The translations under genes were made by a program, and so were the position numbers. Shown piece after piece: positions 34,106 to 46,816 of a stretch of 51,366 nt of DNA (its first letter is position 1; every line of letters starts with the position of its first letter). A model generated the notes under the pieces. The model saw only the letters and a program-made list of their open reading frames with translations. It had not been told where the DNA came from and searched no databases. The DNA comes from Aquificaceae bacterium (GTDB lineage Bacteria; Aquificota; Aquificia; Aquificales; Aquificaceae): the NCBI GenBank assembly GCA_027014155.1, contig JALWEG010000010.1, forward strand, positions 1-51,366, given 5' to 3'.

Positions 34106-34440
34106 ACGAACACCGCCTCCGATGAGTTGATTATACCCTCAATGTCCTCCGCGGAAGCGAGACGCACCTGGGTTATGAAGTCCTTCTCTTTTAACCCCCT
34201 CTCCTGGAGAGAGGCGTCTTCCACGATAACCTCAACGTTCACCATCTCAAAGGTCTCCACAAACTTCTCAAAGCTATTTATACCCAACTCTTCCTGATTC
34301 CAATCGGTTAGAGTGTAAACGCCGTCCCTGAGGAGTATAAGACTAAGTTCGTGGTTCATACCTACAGCTATCGCCTGCCTAAGAGCCTCGTGGGCCTTCC
34401 AAGAGAAGGGGTCTCCCTTTATCAAGAAGGCAACCTTCAT
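34099..34440 (-). CDS. tusC: TusC/DsrF-family sulfur-relay protein
   Basis: The 113-residue protein has the DsrE/DsrF fold: KVAFLIKGDPFSWKAHEALR, LSLILLRDGVYTL, VNVEVIVEDASLQERGLKEK and a closing SSEAVFVW strand, in line with TusC. It contains no cysteine, as expected of a structural TusC/DsrF partner rather than a sulfur carrier. It overlaps cimA by 4 bp and tusB by 7 bp, so the pair is translated together. The order cimA-tusC-tusB-queD puts sulfur relay beside tRNA base modification. Confidence 0.8.
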   Translation of the reverse strand: MKVAFLIKGDPFSWKAHEALRQAIAVGMNHELSLILLRDGVYTLTDWNQEELGINSFEKFVETFEMVNVEVIVEDASLQERGLKEKDFITQVRLASAEDIEGIINSSEAVFVW

Positions 34441-36023
34441 ATCTTTCCCTCCTCCGAATCCTTCATGAGCTTATAAATTATGCTGTCCACGAGAGCTATC
34501 CATGAGGCCTCTATCACGTTTTCAGACACGCCTACCGTTCCCCACTTCCTCTTGCCGTCGCCGGACTCTATCAGAACCCTTACTTTGGCCGAAGTCCCCT
34601 CCTGCTCGTTTATAATCCTAACCTTGTAGTCTATGAGCTGAACCTCTTTCAGAGAGGGATAGAAGTCCTCCAGCGCCTTCCTCAGAGCCCTGTCTATGGC
34701 GCTTACGGGGCCGTTGCCGGAAGCGGCCGTATGCTCTCTGACATCGTTGACGGAGAGCCTAACCGTTGCCTCGGATACGGGCACTTCATCGTCCCTGCGC
34801 TTGGCTATCAAAACCCTGTAGGCATCAAACTCAAAGAAGTCCCTGGCAATACCAAAGTGCCTCTTGCACAGCAGCTCCAAGGAAGCCTCCGCCGCCTCAA
34901 AGTGATATCCCTCCCCTTCCATAGCCTTCACCTTCCTTATCAAGCTCTCCAGCTCCGGGGAGTCCGCATCAACCTCTATTCCGAACTCTCTCAGTTTGTA
35001 TATGAGGTTGCTTTTGCCGGCCATATCGGAGACGGTAATCTTTCTCCTGTTGCCCACCGCCTCCGGCGGTATGTGTTCGTAAGTCCTTCTATTTCTTAAC
35101 ATCGCAGAGGCATGGACACCCGCCTTGTGAGCAAAGGCGCTGTCTCCTACATAGGGCATGTTTCTGGGAAGGGGCATGTTGGACAGCTCCGCCACAAAGA
35201 GGGCGAGTTCTCTGAGCTTCTTCAGGTTATCTTTGGGAATGGTCCTGTAGCCCAACTTAAGCTGCAGGTTTGGGATTATGGAACAGAGGTTGGCGTTGCC
35301 CGTCCTCTCACCTATACCGTTCACCGTGCCGTGCACCTGCCTCGCACCCGCAAGGACCGCCATAAGGGAGTTGGCCACCGCGGTGTCCGAATCGTTGTGG
35401 GCGTGTATGCCCAAGGGAACTCCCGGAAGCTCCTTTGCTACCTCCTTGGTTATCTCATATACCTCGTGGGGAAGCGTTCCTCCGTTGGTGTCGCACAGAA
35501 TCAGCCAGTCCACGCCCGCCTCGTGGGCCGCTCTTAGCACCTGCAGGGCGTAATCGGGGTTGTCCTTGTATCCGTCAAAGAAGTGCTCGGCGTCAAATAT
35601 GACCTCATCAACGCTATCTTTTAGAAACTTGATGCTCTCATAGACCATGTTCAGGTTCTCTTCCAGAGAGGTCCTCAGCGCTTCACGCACGTGCAAATCC
35701 CAGGACTTGCCGAATATGGTTATGGCGTCGGCGCCCGACTTTATCAAAGCCTCTACCTGAGGGTCCTCCTTAACCTTTTTGCCGGCCCTCCTCGTAGAGC
35801 CGAAGGCTACCAGCTTGGCGTTGCTCAATCCCTCCTGTTTTATCTTCTGAAAGAAGAGAGAATCCTTGGGGTTCGCGTAAGGCCACCCCCCCTCTATGTA
35901 ATGTATCCCGAACTCGTCCAGTTTAAGAGCAATCCTGACCTTGTCCTCAAGGGAGAAGTTCACACCCTCCGCCTGAGCGCCGTCTCTGAGGGTGGTGTCG
36001 TATATGTAAACCCTGTCTTCCAT
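34437..36023 (-). CDS. cimA: (R)-citramalate synthase
   Basis: The 528-residue protein is of the isopropylmalate/citramalate synthase family: YDTTLRDGAQAEGVNFSLED with the metal Asp and catalytic Arg, IEGGWPYANPKD, CDTNGGTLPHE, GIHAHNDSDTAVANS with the HxH ligands, GTVNGIGERTGNANL, and a C-terminal regulatory domain from about residue 400. The GWPYANPKD motif and lack of a leucine-pathway neighbour favour CimA, which condenses pyruvate and acetyl-CoA on a threonine-independent route to isoleucine. A TTGATT-16-TATTAT promoter (36059-36032) ends 8 nt before the ATG, with no ribosome site. Confidence 0.9.
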   Translation of the reverse strand: MEDRVYIYDTTLRDGAQAEGVNFSLEDKVRIALKLDEFGIHYIEGGWPYANPKDSLFFQKIKQEGLSNAKLVAFGSTRRAGKKVKEDPQVEALIKSGADAITIFGKSWDLHVREALRTSLEENLNMVYESIKFLKDSVDEVIFDAEHFFDGYKDNPDYALQVLRAAHEAGVDWLILCDTNGGTLPHEVYEITKEVAKELPGVPLGIHAHNDSDTAVANSLMAVLAGARQVHGTVNGIGERTGNANLCSIIPNLQLKLGYRTIPKDNLKKLRELALFVAELSNMPLPRNMPYVGDSAFAHKAGVHASAMLRNRRTYEHIPPEAVGNRRKITVSDMAGKSNLIYKLREFGIEVDADSPELESLIRKVKAMEGEGYHFEAAEASLELLCKRHFGIARDFFEFDAYRVLIAKRRDDEVPVSEATVRLSVNDVREHTAASGNGPVSAIDRALRKALEDFYPSLKEVQLIDYKVRIINEQEGTSAKVRVLIESGDGKRKWGTVGVSENVIEASWIALVDSIIYKLMKDSEEGKI

Positions 36024-36059: not shown

Positions 36060-36085
36060 GCTCAGGACGGTGTAAGGGGTTAATT

Positions 36086-36091
36086 TATAAT
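36086..36091 (+). promoter_or_regulatory. -10 box of the BREX operon
   Basis: A perfect TATAAT ends 8 nt before the brxP ATG. No convincing -35 or ribosome site was found, so the operon may start with a leaderless mRNA. Confidence 0.45.
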
Positions 36092-36099
36092 GTCAAACC

Positions 36100-38424
36100 A
36101 TGTTTGGTCTAAAGTGGATAGGGACAAATCTTTTAGCTCTCTCACCCGAAGGAGATACGAGCGAGCTTTTTCCCGTATTCGCTGAGGAACTTACTACCTT
36201 AGGATTAGATAAATTCCTTAGGTTCCATAAAGATGCCAAAGCGCCCCTTCTGTGGGGAAGGGATATAAATCAGTTTGTTGAATACTACCAAGACGGCGAA
36301 CTCATAGCTAAAATAAGAAAAGGTGCTCTTTATAAAAACCACGAGATAGAGTATATCCGTGAAGGGATAGAGCTTACTCCTATAGATATCAACAAGCTAT
36401 GTGAAGTGAACTACAAATATATGAATGACCTTATCAATGAGGCTCTTGATTATATACACCTTGAGAGAAAGAGACTTGGCAAGGAAGGATACGCTCTCAC
36501 GGTCTCCTATAGTGGGGGTAAAGACTCTCAAGTGGTGCTTGATTTAGTCCTTCAGGTGATTCCTAACGAAGAGCTTTATGTTGTTTTCACGGATACGAAG
36601 ATGGAGCTTCCTGAGACCTATTACATGGTGGATTGGACGGAAGAGTATTACAAACAATTTTATCCTTCCTTCAAAATACACAGGGTTGGTTCGGTATTTG
36701 ATACCGCTGAACTTTGGAAACTTTTCGGACCTCCCAGCAGGATAAAGCGCTGGTGCTGCAGCGTTTATAAGATAGCTCCTCAAGTCAAATTCTTTGAGCG
36801 GATAGGCTCTAATAACTTTTATAAAACAATACTCGTTTTTGAAGGGACAAGAGCGGATGAAAGCACACGGCGAAGCTGTTATGAAAGAACCTCACCCAGA
36901 GAAAAGACCTTTAGGGAAATAAATCTGAAACCCATCTTCAGGTGGAATACTTTTGAAGTATTCCTGTATCACTTTTATAAAGGTCTTAAGATAAATCCGC
37001 TCTATAGGAAAGGTTTAAGAAGAGTTGGTTGTAGCGTATGTCCCTTTGCAAGCACATGGTCCGAATACATAATCCAGAAAGAGTATCCTGAGCACGCTAA
37101 GGAGTTCATTTCTGTCCTTAAAAATTACGCCAAGAGAATGGGAATATCCACAGAGAGCGAAATGAAGGACTACATATCCTCCGGAGCGTGGAAGGCAAGA
37201 GCAGGTGGGCTTGGACTTGAGAATGATGTGTGGGTTGAAGTAGTAAAGAATGGCTCCAAGATGAAGGCTGTTATAGACAACTGCAGGGAAAACATCACAG
37301 AGTGGATGAAAACTGTAGGTAACGTTCATATATTGAAAAATACAAACAATCATACCTCTGGTGAGCTAAGAGTAGGCTCTGCTGTTATTCACTTTGATAT
37401 AAAAAAGGAAAACAACAGACATATTGTACATTTTGGAAATGTTGACCCCCATCCTGCGATATACAAAAAACTGGAGAATGTCCTTTACAAAAGTGCATAC
37501 TGCCTACACTGTACCGGATGCGAGGTTGAGTGTCCATACCACGCGGTAATGACTTATCCCAAGGTAGTTGTCAATCCTGCAAGGTGCACCCATTGCGGTA
37601 ATTGCCTTGAGTTTATAGAGAGGGGGTGCTATGTGGCGGAGTCGTATAATATGTATTTACAACCTAAATTAAAGAAGGCAGAGAAAGTGAGGATGGATAG
37701 ATACAATACTTTTGGGCTCCGCAAGCCTTGGCTTGAAAGTTTCTTAGAAAGAGGCTCAGAGTGGTTTACAAACAATATACTTGGTCCAAAGCAAAAGGAG
37801 GCCATGAATAGATATCTGTTTGATATAGAACTTATAGATAGAAAGAAAAACTTAACTGAACTTTTTGAAATATTATCCAAGCTACTTTACAAGGATCTAA
37901 ACACCGTTTGGCAGGTAGTGTGGGTAAACCTATGTATAAACTCAGACCTCTTCAGATGGTATGTTCAAGAAATTCCTTGGAACAAGAGCTGGTCCAAGAG
38001 TGAGCTTGTATCTTTACTTGAGCAAAAAGGAATTGCGCATAGGACAGCACAGAACTCTATAAACGCCCTCGCAAACACCTTTCAAACATCTCCCCTCGGA
38101 AGTTGGTTCGGTAGAAAAGAAAATAAGAAGGTCTTTTACAAAGGGGGGACAAATGAGATTAGCCTTTGGGCTATTGGATATGCCCTTTACAAACTCAAAG
38201 AATTAAAAGGTTGGAAAGGAACGAGTATAAGGGAAATTTATAGTTTGGAAGACACGGGACCGTATGCTTGGTTCGGCATATCAAAGGATAGCTTTGTAAA
38301 GAAGCTCATATCTCTGAAAGACCGCAAACTCATATCCGCTGACATAGTAGCAGACCTTGATAACATTCACTTTTACGATATTGAATCACTTGATATACTG
38401 AAAGTTGCACTTAATGAGTTTTAG
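36100..38424 (+). CDS. brxP: BrxP: PAPS-reductase-like BREX protein with ferredoxin and DUF4007-like domains
   Basis: The 774-residue protein has four parts. Residues 1-125 are an N-terminal region of unknown role. A PP-loop ATP-pyrophosphatase domain follows, with SGGKDS at 138-143, VFTDTKMELPET, WCC at 218-220, FEGTRADES and a CSVC pair at 311/314 that may bind a cluster, as in DndC. A two-cluster ferredoxin domain carries C468, C471, C474, C478 and C496, C499, C502, C510. From about 536 to the end lies a DUF4007-like domain beginning FGLRKPWLES. By analogy with DndC, it would activate DNA for sulfur insertion, so phosphorothioation is the leading hypothesis. No cysteine desulfurase is adjacent. 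Assimilatory sulfate reduction is unlikely given the context. Confidence 0.9.
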   Translation: MFGLKWIGTNLLALSPEGDTSELFPVFAEELTTLGLDKFLRFHKDAKAPLLWGRDINQFVEYYQDGELIAKIRKGALYKNHEIEYIREGIELTPIDINKLCEVNYKYMNDLINEALDYIHLERKRLGKEGYALTVSYSGGKDSQVVLDLVLQVIPNEELYVVFTDTKMELPETYYMVDWTEEYYKQFYPSFKIHRVGSVFDTAELWKLFGPPSRIKRWCCSVYKIAPQVKFFERIGSNNFYKTILVFEGTRADESTRRSCYERTSPREKTFREINLKPIFRWNTFEVFLYHFYKGLKINPLYRKGLRRVGCSVCPFASTWSEYIIQKEYPEHAKEFISVLKNYAKRMGISTESEMKDYISSGAWKARAGGLGLENDVWVEVVKNGSKMKAVIDNCRENITEWMKTVGNVHILKNTNNHTSGELRVGSAVIHFDIKKENNRHIVHFGNVDPHPAIYKKLENVLYKSAYCLHCTGCEVECPYHAVMTYPKVVVNPARCTHCGNCLEFIERGCYVAESYNMYLQPKLKKAEKVRMDRYNTFGLRKPWLESFLERGSEWFTNNILGPKQKEAMNRYLFDIELIDRKKNLTELFEILSKLLYKDLNTVWQVVWVNLCINSDLFRWYVQEIPWNKSWSKSELVSLLEQKGIAHRTAQNSINALANTFQTSPLGSWFGRKENKKVFYKGGTNEISLWAIGYALYKLKELKGWKGTSIREIYSLEDTGPYAWFGISKDSFVKKLISLKDRKLISADIVADLDNIHFYDIESLDILKVALNEF

Positions 38425-39007
38425 CAGATACTTAACCTTCGGTCTACGCGACGTCTGGCTGGAAAGTTTCTTATATAGACCAGATGTCTGGCTTGAGGAA
38501 AACACACTTGGTCCTGAACAGATAAAGGCTTTTAAAAAGTATATGAAGGACGCGGAGCTAATTGATAGGAGAGGGAATTTAACTCCGTTGGCTTGGAAAA
38601 TGTCGGAGCTATATGCAGAAGACAAGGATGCGGTTTGGCAGATAGTTTGGCTTAACCTATCCCTGAATTCACCTCTTTTTAACTTTTACTGTTCTGAGGT
38701 TCCTTGGAAAAGTACATGGACTAAGGATAAACTCGTATCCCTGATAAAAGGGAAAGGCTATGCGGAGCGCACCGCAAGGAATGCTGTAAATGCCCTCGTT
38801 AATACTTTTGAAAACTCCCCCCTTGGAGAGTGGTTCGGCAAAAAGGTGGAAAAGAGTAAGTACTCTAAAGAGGCTCTTAGCAACCTGAGCCTATATGCTC
38901 TAAAGTATGCCCTTAACAAACTGGGAGAAAGAGCAGAAGCTTTTGAAAGGATATTCGGAATGGACAACCAGGACTTCCATTACAACCTGATGAAGCTTAA
39001 AATATAA
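38414..39007 (+). CDS. Stand-alone DUF4007-like protein, paralogue of the BrxP C-terminus
   Basis: The 197-residue protein aligns by eye along much of its length with the C-terminal third of BrxP: FGLRDVWLESF against FGLRKPWLESF, LGPEQIKAFKKYMKDAELID against LGPKQKEAMNRYLFDIELID, WQIVWLNLSLNSPLF against WQVVWVNLCINSDLF, and ENSPLGEWFGKK against QTSPLGSWFGRK. The pattern R/HRTA.N..NAL.NTF occurs in both, which suggests a winged-helix-like DNA-binding fold. The copies have diverged widely, so the duplication is old. The ATG at 38414 overlaps the brxP stop by 11 bp; the upstream TTG is less likely. I infer a role in target recognition or assembly with BrxP. Confidence 0.85.
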   Translation: MSFSRYLTFGLRDVWLESFLYRPDVWLEENTLGPEQIKAFKKYMKDAELIDRRGNLTPLAWKMSELYAEDKDAVWQIVWLNLSLNSPLFNFYCSEVPWKSTWTKDKLVSLIKGKGYAERTARNAVNALVNTFENSPLGEWFGKKVEKSKYSKEALSNLSLYALKYALNKLGERAEAFERIFGMDNQDFHYNLMKLKI

Positions 39008-39013
39008 TCTTAA

Positions 39014-42000
39014 ATGAAGCATAAGGATTTAATAGAGATAAGGAGGGATTACAGACCGGTTTTCACTCTTGGGCAAGAGGAGAGTGAGCTTCACTGGAAG
39101 TCTTTCATACCCCATACTAACTTCCTTGAGCTCCTGCAAAAGGTGATTAATATTGTAGATGGAAAAGACAAAAGAACCGCTCTATGGCTCCAGGGTTCTT
39201 ACGGTGTCGGAAAAAGCCATGCCTGTAGCGTGGTTGCTCACCTACTTTTTGACCCATTTGAAGAAATAAAAGACTACGTAGAAAAAGACATACAGAACCC
39301 CCAGGTAGTAGGACTTATTAAAAATCTGAGGAATAGAAAGAGGTTTATTCCCGTGTATCTGATAGGAACTGGAGATGTCCCGGATTTGGGGTATATGGGT
39401 TTCTATGTAAGGAACCATATAAAAAATAAACTCAGGCAATTGGGATTAGATACCCCCGTGCTACAAACGGAAGTAGAGCTACTGATAGAGCATGTTAAAA
39501 AAGAAGACGAGGACCAAATTCTTGAAAGAATTCCCAAATATAATTCAAAATCGGCTCTACTGGAAGACCTGAAAAGGAATCCACCCGATAGAGATGCTTT
39601 AAAAGGAGTTTACGATTACTTTGCGAGAAAAGGCATACATATATTCAAAGATATCAAAGAATGGCTGAAGGAAGTTAATGACACAATTAAAGAAGCAGGT
39701 TATGACGGGATATTGCTTATATGGGACGAATTTACACAGGTCTTGGATACAGGGCTAAATCACTTAGAGAAACTTCAAAATCTACTTGCTGAAAACCCTA
39801 ACCTTTACTTAATCGTAGTCAGCCATAGGATGGCTGATTTCTACAAAGAACAGTTTGGAGAACAAACTTATAGGAAGGTTGCCGACCGCTTTGTCCACCA
39901 TAAGCTTGAGCTTGCAGAAACTACAGTTTTCCAGATATTAAAGAGGGCTTTGGACAGAAAAGATAGATGGGCAGAGGTTTGCAGCTCAAGGTTTTCAAGT
40001 TTATCCTACTTGGTTAACCACATAACTAAGCTTTTTGAGGTTCAAAGACCAAAGGCGGAAGACATACGAAACCTTTACCCGTTGCATCCATACACCATAC
40101 TCCTTGCCACCCAAGTCGCTGAGAAGTTCCTTTCTGCAGGGAGAAGTATATTTGGTTACCTTTTTGAAGAAAATGGAGCATTGAACAAGCTCATGGAAAA
40201 GGATGTGGAGGAAGAACCTTTTCTCACAGTGGATACCCTGTGGGATTACTTCCTTGAGCAGATAGGAGAAAGAGATTATGGAGATTTTGCACGGGATATT
40301 GTAAACCATTACAGCAATCATAAAGATAGAGTTAGAGAGTTTGGGAAGGATTACGTTAAAGTGTTTAAAACCTTGATGATACTCAATCTACTTTACAAGT
40401 TTACAGACTATCCACAAAGTTATCTACATCCCACCCGGGAAAACGTTAAACTTGCCTACACAGGGACTCCTTTGGAAAGTAAGATAAACAGCATATTAGA
40501 AATTATACATAGGGAAGGTATTTTACAGAAAAACCCGGACGGTAAATATATGGTTCTTTCTTCTTACTTACCTGAAGAAGAACTAAAAGAGGAAGAATCA
40601 AGATTAAAAAGTGGATTTAAAGATGCTTATAAGGTCATCAATACTTATGTTAGAGAACAAGTGGAAGAGTCTTTGCTGAAGGATTTCTACAGAAAAGTAG
40701 AGGTTTTTATACTTCCCCCAGATGAATCATACAGATACAAAGTAAGATCTACTTATAGACTTCCGCTGGTGGTCGGTTTTCCTAAAACACCCGCAGAGAA
40801 AGAAGCGTATAAAGAAAAGTTCCAAAACGCTTCACAACAATTTCCCAACGCCATATTTATAATTTGGGGTGATGAGATTGGGGAAAGCAGATTATCTGAG
40901 TGGATAAAGTGGAAAGCAAGAGAAAAGGTGGCAGATAGCCATAGATTATATGAAGAGAAAAATTATGCCGCGAAGATGGCAAACAAAATCTTAGAAGATT
41001 ACCTAAATAGAGATGCTTATCTGACCTTATATTTTAGAGGAGTTGGAAATACAATATCAAAGAGAGACATACCTCGTTATCTAAAACAATATTCTGCAGA
41101 AATATTCAATAAAGGTCCTGAAGCATTAGGTATTGAAAACAGAAATCTTTGGGACAAATCAGGAAAGGGTTTATTATCTAAGCTAATAAAAAGTCAGAGA
41201 CTTGATGAGTTAAAAGGTCATATATCACGAGGACCAGAGAAAGATTTACAAGAAGCGCTTTACGATATAGATAGGAAAGAAATCTTTCTTGAAGATTTAT
41301 CCTTAAACCCCAAAGCCGATCCAAGTCATCCGATAGTAAGCTTGTCAGGGGAAATTGAAGAAAAGTTTAAAAACAAACAGAGATTAAGAGTGGAAGACCT
41401 GAAATTCTTACGGGAGCCACCTTACGGACTCTACAACAATAAAATAAGCGCCTTTATATTAGCAACAGCTTTAAAGCCTTTTCAAAATAGGTTATATAGA
41501 GTAGGAGTTGGTAGAGCTTCACTTACGGATTTAGAGAATTTCTCCCGGAGTATTTTGGAAGAAAAAAGAAGCGATATAGAACTCCGCTACGGAAGCGAAA
41601 GTGAGGATAAGCTTGAAGGTTTTCTAAAAGATATATTTGGGAACCTTGTACCCTTTAAGGAAGAAGACAATGACCTAATAAGGGTTAGAAACACAATACG
41701 AGATAAGATAAGGAGTTTAGGTTTTCCTATATGGTCATTGGCTCATCTTGAAGATAAAGAATTAGAAAATCTTCACCAAGATGTGGAATTTTTAAGGGGA
41801 ACCATCAGGGAACTATCAAAATTTATAGCAAGTTCCGATGCCGAATTTAAGGATAATTATATTCTACAGTTAAGTAATAAAATTGAAAAACTCAAAAATA
41901 CTTTAAAGCGCTTATTAGACGAAGAGAACCTTACACAGGGTATGAGGTCTTTCATAGAAAGAAAGATAGGGAAAAGGCAAATAGACAAAAAAGGGTTAGG

Positions 42001-42331
42001 TAAAAAGCTTAAAGAAGAAATGTCTCAAAATGCAATCTTTTGGGATGAAAGTGAGGTTTCCAGTAAAGTGGATAAAATAATAGAAGATATGGAAAGAACA
42101 ATTTCAGAACAGCCAAAATCCGTTATCGAAAAACCTTATACTAAAGCAGAATTGCCAAGAGTAGAACCTATTATGGTCTCGCCCGCAGAATACAAAGAGC
42201 CGGACTTAAAGGAACATTTGCAAAGCCTGAACCATTCACAATTGGTAAATTTAATACTTAATATCTTAGATGAGTATCCTGAGATAAAGAATTCAATTAA
42301 AAAATGGCTAAAGTTAATGGATCATGCATAA
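39014..42331 (+). CDS. brxC: BrxC: large BREX P-loop ATPase
   Basis: The 1105-residue protein has an AAA-type ATPase domain near the N-terminus: Walker A GSYGVGKS at 61-68 and Walker B ILLIWDE near 233-239, then VVSHRM sensor-type residues and a long helical remainder with charged coiled-coil segments toward the C-terminus (about 920-1010). Size, motif placement and operon context match BrxC/PglY. In BREX the ATPase is needed for both modification and phage exclusion, probably as a DNA-associated motor or assembly platform. It starts 6 bp after the DUF4007-like gene and overlaps pglZ by 8 bp. Confidence 0.9.
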   Translation: MKHKDLIEIRRDYRPVFTLGQEESELHWKSFIPHTNFLELLQKVINIVDGKDKRTALWLQGSYGVGKSHACSVVAHLLFDPFEEIKDYVEKDIQNPQVVGLIKNLRNRKRFIPVYLIGTGDVPDLGYMGFYVRNHIKNKLRQLGLDTPVLQTEVELLIEHVKKEDEDQILERIPKYNSKSALLEDLKRNPPDRDALKGVYDYFARKGIHIFKDIKEWLKEVNDTIKEAGYDGILLIWDEFTQVLDTGLNHLEKLQNLLAENPNLYLIVVSHRMADFYKEQFGEQTYRKVADRFVHHKLELAETTVFQILKRALDRKDRWAEVCSSRFSSLSYLVNHITKLFEVQRPKAEDIRNLYPLHPYTILLATQVAEKFLSAGRSIFGYLFEENGALNKLMEKDVEEEPFLTVDTLWDYFLEQIGERDYGDFARDIVNHYSNHKDRVREFGKDYVKVFKTLMILNLLYKFTDYPQSYLHPTRENVKLAYTGTPLESKINSILEIIHREGILQKNPDGKYMVLSSYLPEEELKEEESRLKSGFKDAYKVINTYVREQVEESLLKDFYRKVEVFILPPDESYRYKVRSTYRLPLVVGFPKTPAEKEAYKEKFQNASQQFPNAIFIIWGDEIGESRLSEWIKWKAREKVADSHRLYEEKNYAAKMANKILEDYLNRDAYLTLYFRGVGNTISKRDIPRYLKQYSAEIFNKGPEALGIENRNLWDKSGKGLLSKLIKSQRLDELKGHISRGPEKDLQEALYDIDRKEIFLEDLSLNPKADPSHPIVSLSGEIEEKFKNKQRLRVEDLKFLREPPYGLYNNKISAFILATALKPFQNRLYRVGVGRASLTDLENFSRSILEEKRSDIELRYGSESEDKLEGFLKDIFGNLVPFKEEDNDLIRVRNTIRDKIRSLGFPIWSLAHLEDKELENLHQDVEFLRGTIRELSKFIASSDAEFKDNYILQLSNKIEKLKNTLKRLLDEENLTQGMRSFIERKIGKRQIDKKGLGKKLKEEMSQNAIFWDESEVSSKVDKIIEDMERTISEQPKSVIEKPYTKAELPRVEPIMVSPAEYKEPDLKEHLQSLNHSQLVNLILNILDEYPEIKNSIKKWLKLMDHA

Positions 42332-44513
42332 AACTATAGATAATCTAAACGATTTTCAAGCTAAATTTTGGAGCGAATTAAGCAATCCATATAGTAGAAC
42401 CTTAGGAGTTAGAATAATATTAGTTGACAGCTTTGAAGTTCTTAGAAGTATAGAGAAAGAGCTTTTACATCTACGTAGAAAAACGAAGTATTTGGAAGAC
42501 TATATTCCAGAGGGGAAAAATTGGCTATCCATAAACGACATAAAGAATTTAATAGAGGATTTTATAAAAAAGAACGACATAGTTTATCTATTTTCATTGG
42601 ACAATTTACTCCGATTTTACAGCACTGATGAGCTAAACAGCCTGCTCCCAAACATTTTGAGAATAAGAACAAACAAAGGTTATGCGATTTTACCTTTGGC
42701 AGGCTTAAAAGAAAGGATAAAGGATATAAAGGGTATAAGAGAATTTTATAAAGACTTGATTTACGAAGTGACAGCTACGGGGAAAAAGGTTAAGATGTTC
42801 GTATTAAATCCGAAGATAAACATTAAACTTAAATGTGTAGAAGATTTCAGAGAGTTCTTAGGTTGTTGGAGATTGCAAAATACCGAAATCTATGTAAAGA
42901 ACAGAGTAATTTACTCAAGCTACAAAAACGCTTACCCTGATACAGCGGTTGATGTTGTTGGGATTGAAAACTATAAGGACGTTTTGAGAAAAGTTGTAGG
43001 TTTTAAAGACAAAATATATTTCACCGATAAGAACTATGAAAAAGGATTGGCAGAAGAAGTTTTAGAAAAAAACTTGCATTCCTTCAAGGATATGTTCCCT
43101 TCCATTAAAGATTTTGCAGATTTTGTAAAACATTTTTTGAAGGAAAGGAATGAACTTAAGCGTAAGTCTCTATTAAATTTGGCTTACAACTATATGTCAG
43201 GCTATAAGAGCATTCTTAAAGAGGATAAAGTAGCTTTCTTAAAAAATATATATAGAGGAAATTTGGATCAAGGCGATAAATATAGATTTTTATCTATAGC
43301 TATAAAAGCAGACTCTTCATTTGAACGTTTACTTTGCGAAGAGCTGGATGAAAGTATAAAAAAAGAAAACATAATTGGAATTCTGGAATGTGAGAAAAAG
43401 AAAGCTTTGGAGCTTATTACGCAAGGGAAAATATCTTTAGAGGAATTACAGGCTCAGTTTGAAGACTTTGCGGCGTATCTTGATACTCCAAAACCGCCAA
43501 ACCTTGAGGAAAACCAAAAATGGGTATTGGATTATATGAATTTATACAAGGAAAGTAAATTACGGAATAAGGCATTAGCAGAGCTTGAAAGTTTACTTAA
43601 TAACATTAATAGAAGTGGAAATTTTTATAACTGGTATTACTCATTTAAATGGATATTGGATATAGCTACAGAGTGGAAGGACGAAGCTGAAAGAATTGTC
43701 TGGATAGACGCTCTCGGATTTGAATGGGCAGGCTTTGTTTTGAATTACTTAAAAAGTAAAGGGATTCCTGTTCACGCTTTCCACATATGCAGAGCTAACC
43801 TTCCTTCAATCACCGAGACAAACAAACCAAATTTTGAAGTTTTGGAAATGCGTGAATTTGATAATTTAATTCACCAAAGGTATAAGTTTCCAGATTCAAT
43901 TATTAAGGAAATGAACAAGCTTAAAGAAATCTTAGACAAAGAGATAAATGTGGAAAAGAGAACACTTATATTTTCAGACCATGGAAGTTCTGCTCTCGTA
44001 AGACTGCATCAACCCATTAAGCTTTCTACAGGCATTAAGTTTGAACATGGTGGCAGGTTTTTTAGAGGGCCTCTCGGGTATGAACCTAAAGAGGTTATAA
44101 AGCACACAGAAGGTGTTGAATATTTCTATGTTGCTACAACTCACAAGTCTATTGGGACTAAACCTCAAGGTGAAGCACATGGAGGAGCTACACCAGAAGA
44201 AATACTTACATTTGCTCTTATAGTAGGCGGACAGGAGGAGATTTCCTACAGTGTGGACCTTCCTGAGCGAGAAATTAGCAGAAGGAATAATAAGTTAGTG
44301 GTTTACATAAGACCTGTGCCAAAGGTTAATGTGGAGCTTGTTATAGATAAGAAACCTGTAGAGTATGCATTAGACAAAGAGCGTAGGTATGTAATAGATT
44401 TAGCCGGTATAAGGTCAGGCGATCATACTCTTGAAATAAAAATAGGGTCCAATATCTATAGGGAACCATTCCGTATAATCGGCGGCTTAGAGGAAGAGGA
44501 GTTCCTAATATGA
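42324..44513 (+). CDS. pglZ: PglZ: alkaline-phosphatase-superfamily BREX protein
   Basis: The 729-residue protein has an N-terminal helical region and a C-terminal PglZ domain of the alkaline phosphatase superfamily. Metal-site candidates are the Asp of IVWIDALGFEW near residue 460, the Asp and His of IFSDHGSSA near 550, and the His of GEAHGGATPEE near 617. A small beta-rich tail follows (VVYIRPVPKVNVELVIDKKP to the end). PglZ is the signature protein of all BREX types and is needed for defence and modification; it may act as a nuclease or phosphodiesterase. It overlaps brxC by 8 bp and brxL by 4 bp. Confidence 0.93.
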   Translation: MHKTIDNLNDFQAKFWSELSNPYSRTLGVRIILVDSFEVLRSIEKELLHLRRKTKYLEDYIPEGKNWLSINDIKNLIEDFIKKNDIVYLFSLDNLLRFYSTDELNSLLPNILRIRTNKGYAILPLAGLKERIKDIKGIREFYKDLIYEVTATGKKVKMFVLNPKINIKLKCVEDFREFLGCWRLQNTEIYVKNRVIYSSYKNAYPDTAVDVVGIENYKDVLRKVVGFKDKIYFTDKNYEKGLAEEVLEKNLHSFKDMFPSIKDFADFVKHFLKERNELKRKSLLNLAYNYMSGYKSILKEDKVAFLKNIYRGNLDQGDKYRFLSIAIKADSSFERLLCEELDESIKKENIIGILECEKKKALELITQGKISLEELQAQFEDFAAYLDTPKPPNLEENQKWVLDYMNLYKESKLRNKALAELESLLNNINRSGNFYNWYYSFKWILDIATEWKDEAERIVWIDALGFEWAGFVLNYLKSKGIPVHAFHICRANLPSITETNKPNFEVLEMREFDNLIHQRYKFPDSIIKEMNKLKEILDKEINVEKRTLIFSDHGSSALVRLHQPIKLSTGIKFEHGGRFFRGPLGYEPKEVIKHTEGVEYFYVATTHKSIGTKPQGEAHGGATPEEILTFALIVGGQEEISYSVDLPEREISRRNNKLVVYIRPVPKVNVELVIDKKPVEYALDKERRYVIDLAGIRSGDHTLEIKIGSNIYREPFRIIGGLEEEEFLI

Positions 44514-45931
44514 CACAACTGGACGAAAAGATAAAAGATATCTTTGTTGAGGAAAGTGTTTATAAAGATGATAGGGTGCGAGCCATCTTCTCCGGTTGGA
44601 ATATTCCTTCCTTTATAAAGGACTGGCTAATCAACAGATACACAGACAAAATGAGTGGGAAAATTGACAAAGAAGGAATACTGGAATTCTTAGAAAGATA
44701 TATGCCATGGAGAGGTTTAAAAGGAGAACTTGTTAATCACCCATATCGTTCTTATAAGGTATTAGCTCGTATAATTACCGAACCTGATGTGAAGAAAGGT
44801 ATCATAAGGTTTCATATTCCTGACTTGGGTATTAAACCTGAAGAGGGAATAGTATCTTCTAAACTTCTATCCAATCGAGAGGGTAAGCACCTTTCTATGG
44901 GAGAATTCTGGGGCGTTTGTGAACTTACTTATGTAAAAGAAGTTGATAAACCGGGTTATATAGAGCTTTCTAATTTTAAACCTTTTAAACCTTATAAAGT
45001 TAACCTGGATTACTATGTAGAAGCCAGAAAGGAATTTACCACACAAGAATGGATAGACGTGCTAATTAAGTCAATGGAATTTAATCCTAATGCGCTAAGC
45101 TTTGATGAAAAACTATTGCTGTTATGTAGATTAACAGTATTTGTGGAACCGAATTTGAACCTTATAGAGTTGGCTCCTAAAGGGACAGGTAAATCTTACG
45201 TGTTTTCAAACCTATCAAAGTATGGTTGGATTATGAGCGGAGGTTTCGTTTCAAGAGCCAAGTTGTTCTATGATCTTCAGAAAAAAGCTGAAGGAATCAT
45301 ATCAAGGTATGATTTCGTAGTTATAGATGAAGTTCAAACTGTTAAGTTTAATGATGAAAATGAAATACGAGGCATATTGAAGAGTTATCTTGAAAACGGA
45401 ACATACAATGTAGGCGACTTCAAGGGTGTTTCAGCAGCAGGATTTGTAATTTTGGGCAATATACAATTAACCGAGGAAAGGAAACCTAAGCAAAGGTGGT
45501 ACTTTGAAGAGCTTCCTAATGTTTTTCAAGAATCTGCACTAATAGACAGGTTCCATGGTTTTATAGAGGGTTGGAAACTGCCCAGGTTTAATGAGAGCTT
45601 GAAGGTTAAAGGGTATGCCCTTAACGTAGAGTTTTTCTCGGACATACTTCACATGCTTAGAGGGAAAGGGGAATATTCCACCTTTGTAGGAGATATCTTA
45701 GAAATCCCTGTCAAGGCAGATACACGAGATAAAAAAGCAATAGTTAAGCTAACCACAGCCTTACTTAAGCTTATATTTCCCAATATCCCTTTGCGAGATC
45801 ATGAAATAAAAGAGTTCAAAAACTTCTGCCTCGGCTTAGCGAAGGATTTAAGGAAGGTAGTAAAAGAGCAACTATATATCATGGATGCTGAATACAATAA
45901 GGAAATACCAGATATAAGAGTCGTAGCTTAA
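44510..45931 (+). CDS. brxL: BrxL: AAA+ BREX protein, short form
   Basis: The 473-residue protein begins with a DNA-binding-type N-terminal region (about 1-190), followed by an AAA+ ATPase domain with Walker A APKGTGKS near 222-229, Walker B FVVIDEVQ near 270 and FVILGNI as a sensor strand. It then stops about 80 residues after FHGFIEGWKLP. The Lon-like C-terminal domain known in the longer type 1 BrxL (about 680 residues) is not visible. BrxL forms DNA-encircling multimers and is required for phage exclusion. It overlaps pglZ by 4 bp and ends 3 bp from the convergent AEC gene. Confidence 0.88.
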   Translation: MTQLDEKIKDIFVEESVYKDDRVRAIFSGWNIPSFIKDWLINRYTDKMSGKIDKEGILEFLERYMPWRGLKGELVNHPYRSYKVLARIITEPDVKKGIIRFHIPDLGIKPEEGIVSSKLLSNREGKHLSMGEFWGVCELTYVKEVDKPGYIELSNFKPFKPYKVNLDYYVEARKEFTTQEWIDVLIKSMEFNPNALSFDEKLLLLCRLTVFVEPNLNLIELAPKGTGKSYVFSNLSKYGWIMSGGFVSRAKLFYDLQKKAEGIISRYDFVVIDEVQTVKFNDENEIRGILKSYLENGTYNVGDFKGVSAAGFVILGNIQLTEERKPKQRWYFEELPNVFQESALIDRFHGFIEGWKLPRFNESLKVKGYALNVEFFSDILHMLRGKGEYSTFVGDILEIPVKADTRDKKAIVKLTTALLKLIFPNIPLRDHEIKEFKNFCLGLAKDLRKVVKEQLYIMDAEYNKEIPDIRVVA

Positions 45932-45934
45932 GAC

Positions 45935-46816
45935 TTACACAATCCCCAATATCAGAGGGACCGTCAGAAAGCTGACGAATATACCCAGAGTGACCGCCGA
46001 GACGGCGAGCTTGGCGTCAAGGCCGTACTTTATCGCCAGCACCGCGGACATCACCATGGCGGGCATAGAGCTTTCAAGGAGCACTACCTTGTGATGCAAC
46101 TGGGAAAGACCTAAAACCTTCAACAGCAACGCAAGTACGAGGGGAACCGCCACCATCTTAAGACCTATAGACACGGTGCTCAGTCCTATGGACTCCTTTA
46201 TACCTCTGAGGTTCAGCTTCAGGCCCAGAGAAAAGAGAATCACCGGTATCAGGGAATCGGAAGCTACCTGAAGGAGCCTCTCGGCGTAAGGGGGCAGCTC
46301 CTTGCTCATGAGGACAAAGCCCAACACCAGCCCCCAGAAAGGCGGGAAGGAGAGAATCTCCCTCAGACTGAACCTGCCGGTGGCAACCAATAGCCCTAAG
46401 GTTATAACGGCCAGAAAGGAACCCAGCTGGTCGTAGAGTATCGCATACTTGAGTCCCTCCTCCCCGAACAGAGCGTAGGCGTAAGGGTATCCCAGAAAGG
46501 CGGTGTTTCCCAAGGTGGAAACCAGTATGAAGCTTCTGAAGGTTCTACCCTTAAGTCCGAGGAGCTTTCCCACCAAAAGGGCAAGGGCCGAAGAAAACAG
46601 CATCGTGCTCCACGCAAATCCGGCCACCTCAAGGGCCACCCTGCCGCTATCTAAACCCTTTATGCTGTCTACCACGGTAAGAGGTAAGGAAAAGTAGATA
46701 ACGAAGTCTATAAATACTTTTGCATCTTCTTCCTTAAACACCTTGGCCCTCTTTAGGGCGTAAGAGAAGAGAATTATCGCTACCAGAAAGAAGAGTCTCT
46801 CGTAAGTAGAAGCCAT
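45935..46816 (-). CDS. AEC (auxin efflux carrier) family transporter
   Basis: The 293-residue membrane protein has about ten predicted helices in two halves. Marks are LKRAKVFKEEDAKVFIDFV, STLGNTAFLGYPYAYALFGE with the helix-breaking NTAFLGYP, and the repeat-like VVLLESSMPAMVMSAVLA in the second half, all typical of the AEC family. Members export organic acids or amino acids such as malate; the substrate here is unknown. The ATG at 46816 follows AGGAAA with normal spacing; an upstream start would run into the divergent carB promoter. Confidence 0.87.
   Translation of the reverse strand: MASTYERLFFLVAIILFSYALKRAKVFKEEDAKVFIDFVIYFSLPLTVVDSIKGLDSGRVALEVAGFAWSTMLFSSALALLVGKLLGLKGRTFRSFILVSTLGNTAFLGYPYAYALFGEEGLKYAILYDQLGSFLAVITLGLLVATGRFSLREILSFPPFWGLVLGFVLMSKELPPYAERLLQVASDSLIPVILFSLGLKLNLRGIKESIGLSTVSIGLKMVAVPLVLALLLKVLGLSQLHHKVVLLESSMPAMVMSAVLAIKYGLDAKLAVSAVTLGIFVSFLTVPLILGIV

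Follow-up and report, generated by a model that had tools for sequence, protein, structure and literature searches.

The operon at positions 36100–45931 of the window (the whole 51,366-nucleotide stretch of DNA analysed here) is very probably an intact type 4 BREX system, and its sequence indicates that it carries the DUF4007 domain twice, once fused to BrxP and once as a free protein. The locus is mainly a further member of a described system, and represents a small recurrent variant of type 4 BREX. Our best guess, guided by a structural model, is that the free DUF4007 protein is an accessory SspB-like subunit with a putative role in site recognition or strand nicking.

Five plus-strand genes, all with intact open reading frames, fill this interval. 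The earlier note had proposed a complete type 4 BREX system with the gene order brxP-DUF4007-brxC-pglZ-brxL, and had named profile searches as the check; PADLOC, NCBIfam and Pfam matches far above chance bear this out, with the BrxP, BrxC, PglZ and BrxL models all matched. The first gene, brxP (36100–38424), matches the PADLOC BrxP model at 725 bits (positions 21–767 of 774), and the separate DUF4007 (SspB-like) gene (38414–39007) matches positions 521–703 of the BrxP model (150 bits). These are followed by brxC (39014–42331; PADLOC BrxC, full length, 352 bits), a BREX-4 type pglZ (42324–44513; NCBIfam BREX_PglZ_4, NF033445, 298 bits against a cut-off of 140) and brxL in its short type-4 form (44510–45931; 628 bits, with Pfam BrxL_N and BrxL_ATPase above cut-off). 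Adjacent genes overlap or sit at most 6 bases apart, which suggests that the five form a single transcription unit. On the upstream side lies cimA (34437–36023, minus strand), a divergently oriented citramalate-synthase-like gene, with a gap of 76 bases before brxP, and downstream a permease gene on the opposite strand ends 3 bases past brxL. Counts of promoters and terminators equalled those in shuffled sequence. The absence of a methyltransferase, also claimed earlier, holds: profile searches of 36100–45931 found no gene of such a family, and the only match, a weak PADLOC MTase_II hit (16 bits), falls on the PP-loop domain of BrxP.

The conserved-residue checks, which took in 47–66 relatives per protein, point to nothing indicating decay. 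The PP-loop, Walker and PglZ motifs listed in the earlier note are in place when compared with relatives, and with all frames open and catalytic residues kept, no destructive mutation was found in an essential gene. BrxP is a PAPS-reductase-like sulfurtransferase (Pfam PAPS_reduct, 103 bits) with a PP-loop (SGGKDS, residues 138–143) and cysteines C219, C220, C311 and C314; its further parts are an alpha+beta domain, a two-cluster ferredoxin-type cysteine region (468–510) and a C-terminal DUF4007/SspB-like domain (about 529–774). Among 47 BrxP relatives the PP-loop, C219/C220, C311/C314 and the eight cysteines of the ferredoxin-type region vary little or not at all, and BrxP here keeps every one. 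In fold searches the PP-loop domain of BrxP groups with PAPS reductases and with TtuA, an iron-sulfur thiolase; SspB is matched as well. BrxC is an SspC-related AAA+ ATPase of the ORC/Cdc6 type with intact Walker A (G61–K67) and Walker B (D238–E239) motifs. PglZ retains all residues that are at least 95% conserved among 53 sequences, including those of the alkaline-phosphatase fold (D462, T497, D513, H517, D552, H553 and H619). BrxL (473 aa; TIGR02688, 461 bits against a cut-off of 329) has intact Walker A (T226–S229) and D273–E274 residues, and is without a C-terminal Lon or HKD extension, a published type-4 feature.

The separate DUF4007 gene encodes a 197-aa protein from an ATG at 38414, overlapping the brxP stop. 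The protein is a paralogue of BrxP residues 529–774 (51% identity across 173 residues); the earlier label of "DUF4007-like" was correct in its identification but had missed this kinship with the C-terminal domain of BrxP. The free copy retains the first HTH, the first winged HTH and, in the third unit, the helices; the last winged-helix strands, present in the BrxP-fused copy, are missing. An AlphaFold model (pLDDT 96; 187 of the 197 residues at ≥90) predicts a fold made up entirely of HTH and winged-HTH units. The only convincing PDB matches found by Foldseek were SspB chains (6lb9 and 6juf; probability 1.00, E about 1e-3), with a TM score of 0.69 on the query for 6lb9, and the predicted fold is that of SspB with an incomplete C-terminal winged helix. 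Sequence searches of the PDB returned no match for a small DUF4007 alignment, while a wider DUF4007 profile gave weak support for SspB (E 2e-4). PADLOC already has a model named BrxP, PDLC02511, that picks up separate proteins of this kind.

The same layout, with the same length and truncation, occurs in three other genera of the family (genomes G061, G007 and G046), i.e., four genera in all. To this we added 80 further loci, the best 80 hits in a pattern search of named genomes, so that the counts are a sample proportion rather than a census. Among the 68 readable type 4 loci (those with a fused BrxP and a readable BrxC), 10 have a separate gene besides the fused BrxP and the other 58 have the fused copy only; hence the separate gene is not the standard part that the earlier note took it to be. 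The 10 comprise four Aquificota, two Coprothermobacteraceae, and one each from Syntrophaceae, Cryosericum, a proteobacterial metagenome-assembled genome and a rumen bacterium. Candidatus Cryosericum hinesii (L050:12308-13944) apparently has two separate DUF4007 genes and the fused one, giving three copies in the operon.

A tree of 96 DUF4007 domains places the four Aquificota separate copies in a clade of their own (SH-aLRT 99) beside the Aquificota fused domains, and once long rows are taken out, every Aquificota copy, separate or fused, falls on one side of a branch (99). The rumen copy (L101) is sister to the fused domain of its own locus (100). In origin tests, from which three fast-evolving separate copies were excluded, a single clade of all tested separate copies was rejected (p-AU 2e-66), whereas one origin for all but the rumen copy was compatible with the data (p 0.42). 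The separate genes therefore appear to derive from at least two duplications, and we claim no more than this. We found no description of the fused-plus-separate layout in the open type 4 BREX literature, including the main text of a 2026 survey, and no relevant paper on BREX in Aquificota or Coprothermobacter turned up in a literature search. The layout is a modest recurrent variant.

Two papers (PMC11931770 and PMC12839542), each citing Yuan et al., describe type 4 BREX (brxPCZL) as making DNA phosphorothioates, and the type is stated to share SspB, SspC and SspD homologues. Both the protein families and the published work support the proposal in the earlier note of a sulfur rather than a methyl mark, which given that published work is not new; it was fair to describe type 4 as among the least studied, although the January 2026 survey counts 457 taxa (PMC12839542). 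By analogy with these systems, DNA phosphorothioation would be expected in the host organism. There is no cysteine desulfurase gene within the operon; this is an optional feature, reported in the survey for 56% of taxa and lacking in 44%. The host genome encodes an intact NifS/IscS-type desulfurase (active site SGSACVS) on contig C27, and such a housekeeping enzyme would supply the sulfur. Judging from its family and residues, BrxP would then activate a DNA backbone phosphate with ATP and insert sulfur, aided by its iron-sulfur clusters, with BrxC as a putative ATPase scaffold on the DNA and the SspB-like DUF4007 domains selecting or nicking the site. Unmarked phage DNA would putatively be blocked by the motor BrxL and by PglZ, whose type I BREX counterpart is a nuclease.

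SspB is reported as a nickase, was crystallised as a Mg-bound dimer and has dimer-interface residues that are vital (PMC9240713). Given this and the SspB-like fold, we propose that the free, shortened DUF4007 protein may form a heterodimer with its counterpart fused to BrxP, in place of a homodimer, which would make site recognition or nicking asymmetric. This reading is tentative, and we consider it somewhat less probable than its opposite. With similar reserve, the loci might constitute a recurrent type 4 BREX subtype with a duplicated recognition/nicking module working as an obligate asymmetric pair, one member tethered to the sulfurtransferase and one free. If true, such a pair could let the system read asymmetric sites or govern which strand receives the sulfur mark. 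The duplicated SspB-like module offers a clean genetic handle on site and strand choice in such systems, as a single small gene can be removed.

The faster divergence of the free copy (relative to BrxL) and its missing last strands would also fit a role in regulation or structure alone. The main rival to an accessory subunit is a compact tri-HTH regulator of the operon, of the sort that some BREX systems have, which would bind within the 76 bp that lie between cimA and brxP; the all-HTH/winged-HTH predicted fold would suit this, as would the lack, in the operon's gene list, of any other regulator gene, and the 2026 survey allows a regulatory role for BrxA-like proteins (PMC12839542). However, regulator genes normally lie upstream, whereas this one is inside the operon, overlaps brxP and derives from the modification enzyme's own domain, and we regard such a role as unlikely. 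That the gene is instead a functionless remnant of duplication is more doubtful still. Its shortened C-terminus and the lack of a separate gene in most type 4 loci (58 of 68 in the sample) are what a remnant might show, but identical length and truncation are kept in four genera, the predicted fold is well formed, the layout arose at least twice, and dN/dS against G061 is low, at 0.07 (NG86) to 0.20 (YN00) with synonymous sites near saturation. Retention in four genera under apparent purifying selection makes a dead remnant very unlikely.

An assignment of the whole locus to Ssp rather than BREX would draw on the matches of BrxC to SspC models, the weak match of BrxP to SspD and the membership of DUF4007 in the SspB family. 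It is nonetheless hardly credible given that PglZ and BrxL are present, that BREX models score far above Ssp models (352 against 100 bits for BrxC, 725 against 48 for BrxP) and that separate-only Ssp-like loci fall in another part of the DUF4007 tree. SspABCD shares with this operon the SspB fold (6lb9, 6juf), an SspC-like ATPase and an SspD-like sulfurtransferase, but is without PglZ or BrxL, and its SspB is separate and full length, neither fused nor duplicated. Closer in gene content is plasmid pNP174 of Methanosphaera sp. ISO3-F5 (NZ_CP118754), which has the same genes in the same order and a short BrxL (PMC12839542). Its BrxP likewise has PAPS-reductase, ferredoxin-type and DUF4007 parts and is about 36% identical to BrxP here, but like most loci it has no separate DUF4007 gene. 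The thermophile Coprothermobacter platensis DSM 11748 (L112) has the same fused-plus-separate layout. Its separate protein (PDLC02511, 361 bits) is full length (266 aa), unlike the shortened 197-aa copy here, and groups apart from the Aquificota copies, although a common origin is compatible with the data (p 0.42).

The operon lies on contig C10 of a 1.86-Mb draft genome (99.9% complete). A full-length reverse gyrase (1399 bits) makes the earlier designation of the host as a thermophile sound, and the LpxK encoded in the window is a close match to the tetraacyldisaccharide kinase structure 4ehx, a protein of Aquifex aeolicus, which points to an Aquificota host. No solved structural relatives of PglZ and BrxC were found by sequence, and for BrxP such matches cover sub-domains only. 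The thermophile's compact set would therefore be a practical source of stable proteins for a system that lacks structures.

GC content is 37.5% in the operon against 52% in both flanks, with sharp edges. The earlier note had called for comparison with related strains lacking the operon; in G063 (96% complete), the one further genome of the genus, BrxP is absent, and collinearity of G063 with this contig runs up to 36059 on the left and from 45957 on the right, which together with the GC shift delimits a foreign block at 36060–45956. The two flanking blocks are on separate contigs of G063, each beside other neighbours, which places the operon at a rearrangement point. No joined, clean empty site was found in G063, and direct repeats at the block edges were unconvincing (best match 10 bp). 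The nearest BrxP (83%) and BrxL (85%) both belong to genus g11 (G061), for which identities are 70% for citramalate synthase, 65% for transketolase and 77% for GuaB; genus g2 is closer for these housekeeping genes (78, 67 and 81%). Low GC, absence from G063 and this discordance in relatedness indicate that the operon was probably acquired horizontally, and its source probably lay within the phylum.

PglZ is only 60% identical between this genome and G061 (L122:6533-8701), against 83–85% for BrxP and BrxL, which suggests that it either evolves much faster or was exchanged on its own. The Pfam PglZ model PF08665 gives no match to 42324–44513, where NF033445 scores twice its cut-off; PF08665 alone yields a false negative here, and surveys relying on Pfam alone would undercount type 4 BREX. 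The gene after the type 4 BREX operon on Methanosphaera pNP174 (L038:20135-21847) is of the DUF262 (GmrSD-like) kind. Type 4 BREX was also found on two contigs from human faeces deposited as unverified "Bacteriophage sp." (L039 and L040; MT835511 and MT835963), which may be mislabelled bacterial contigs or represent phage-borne defence.
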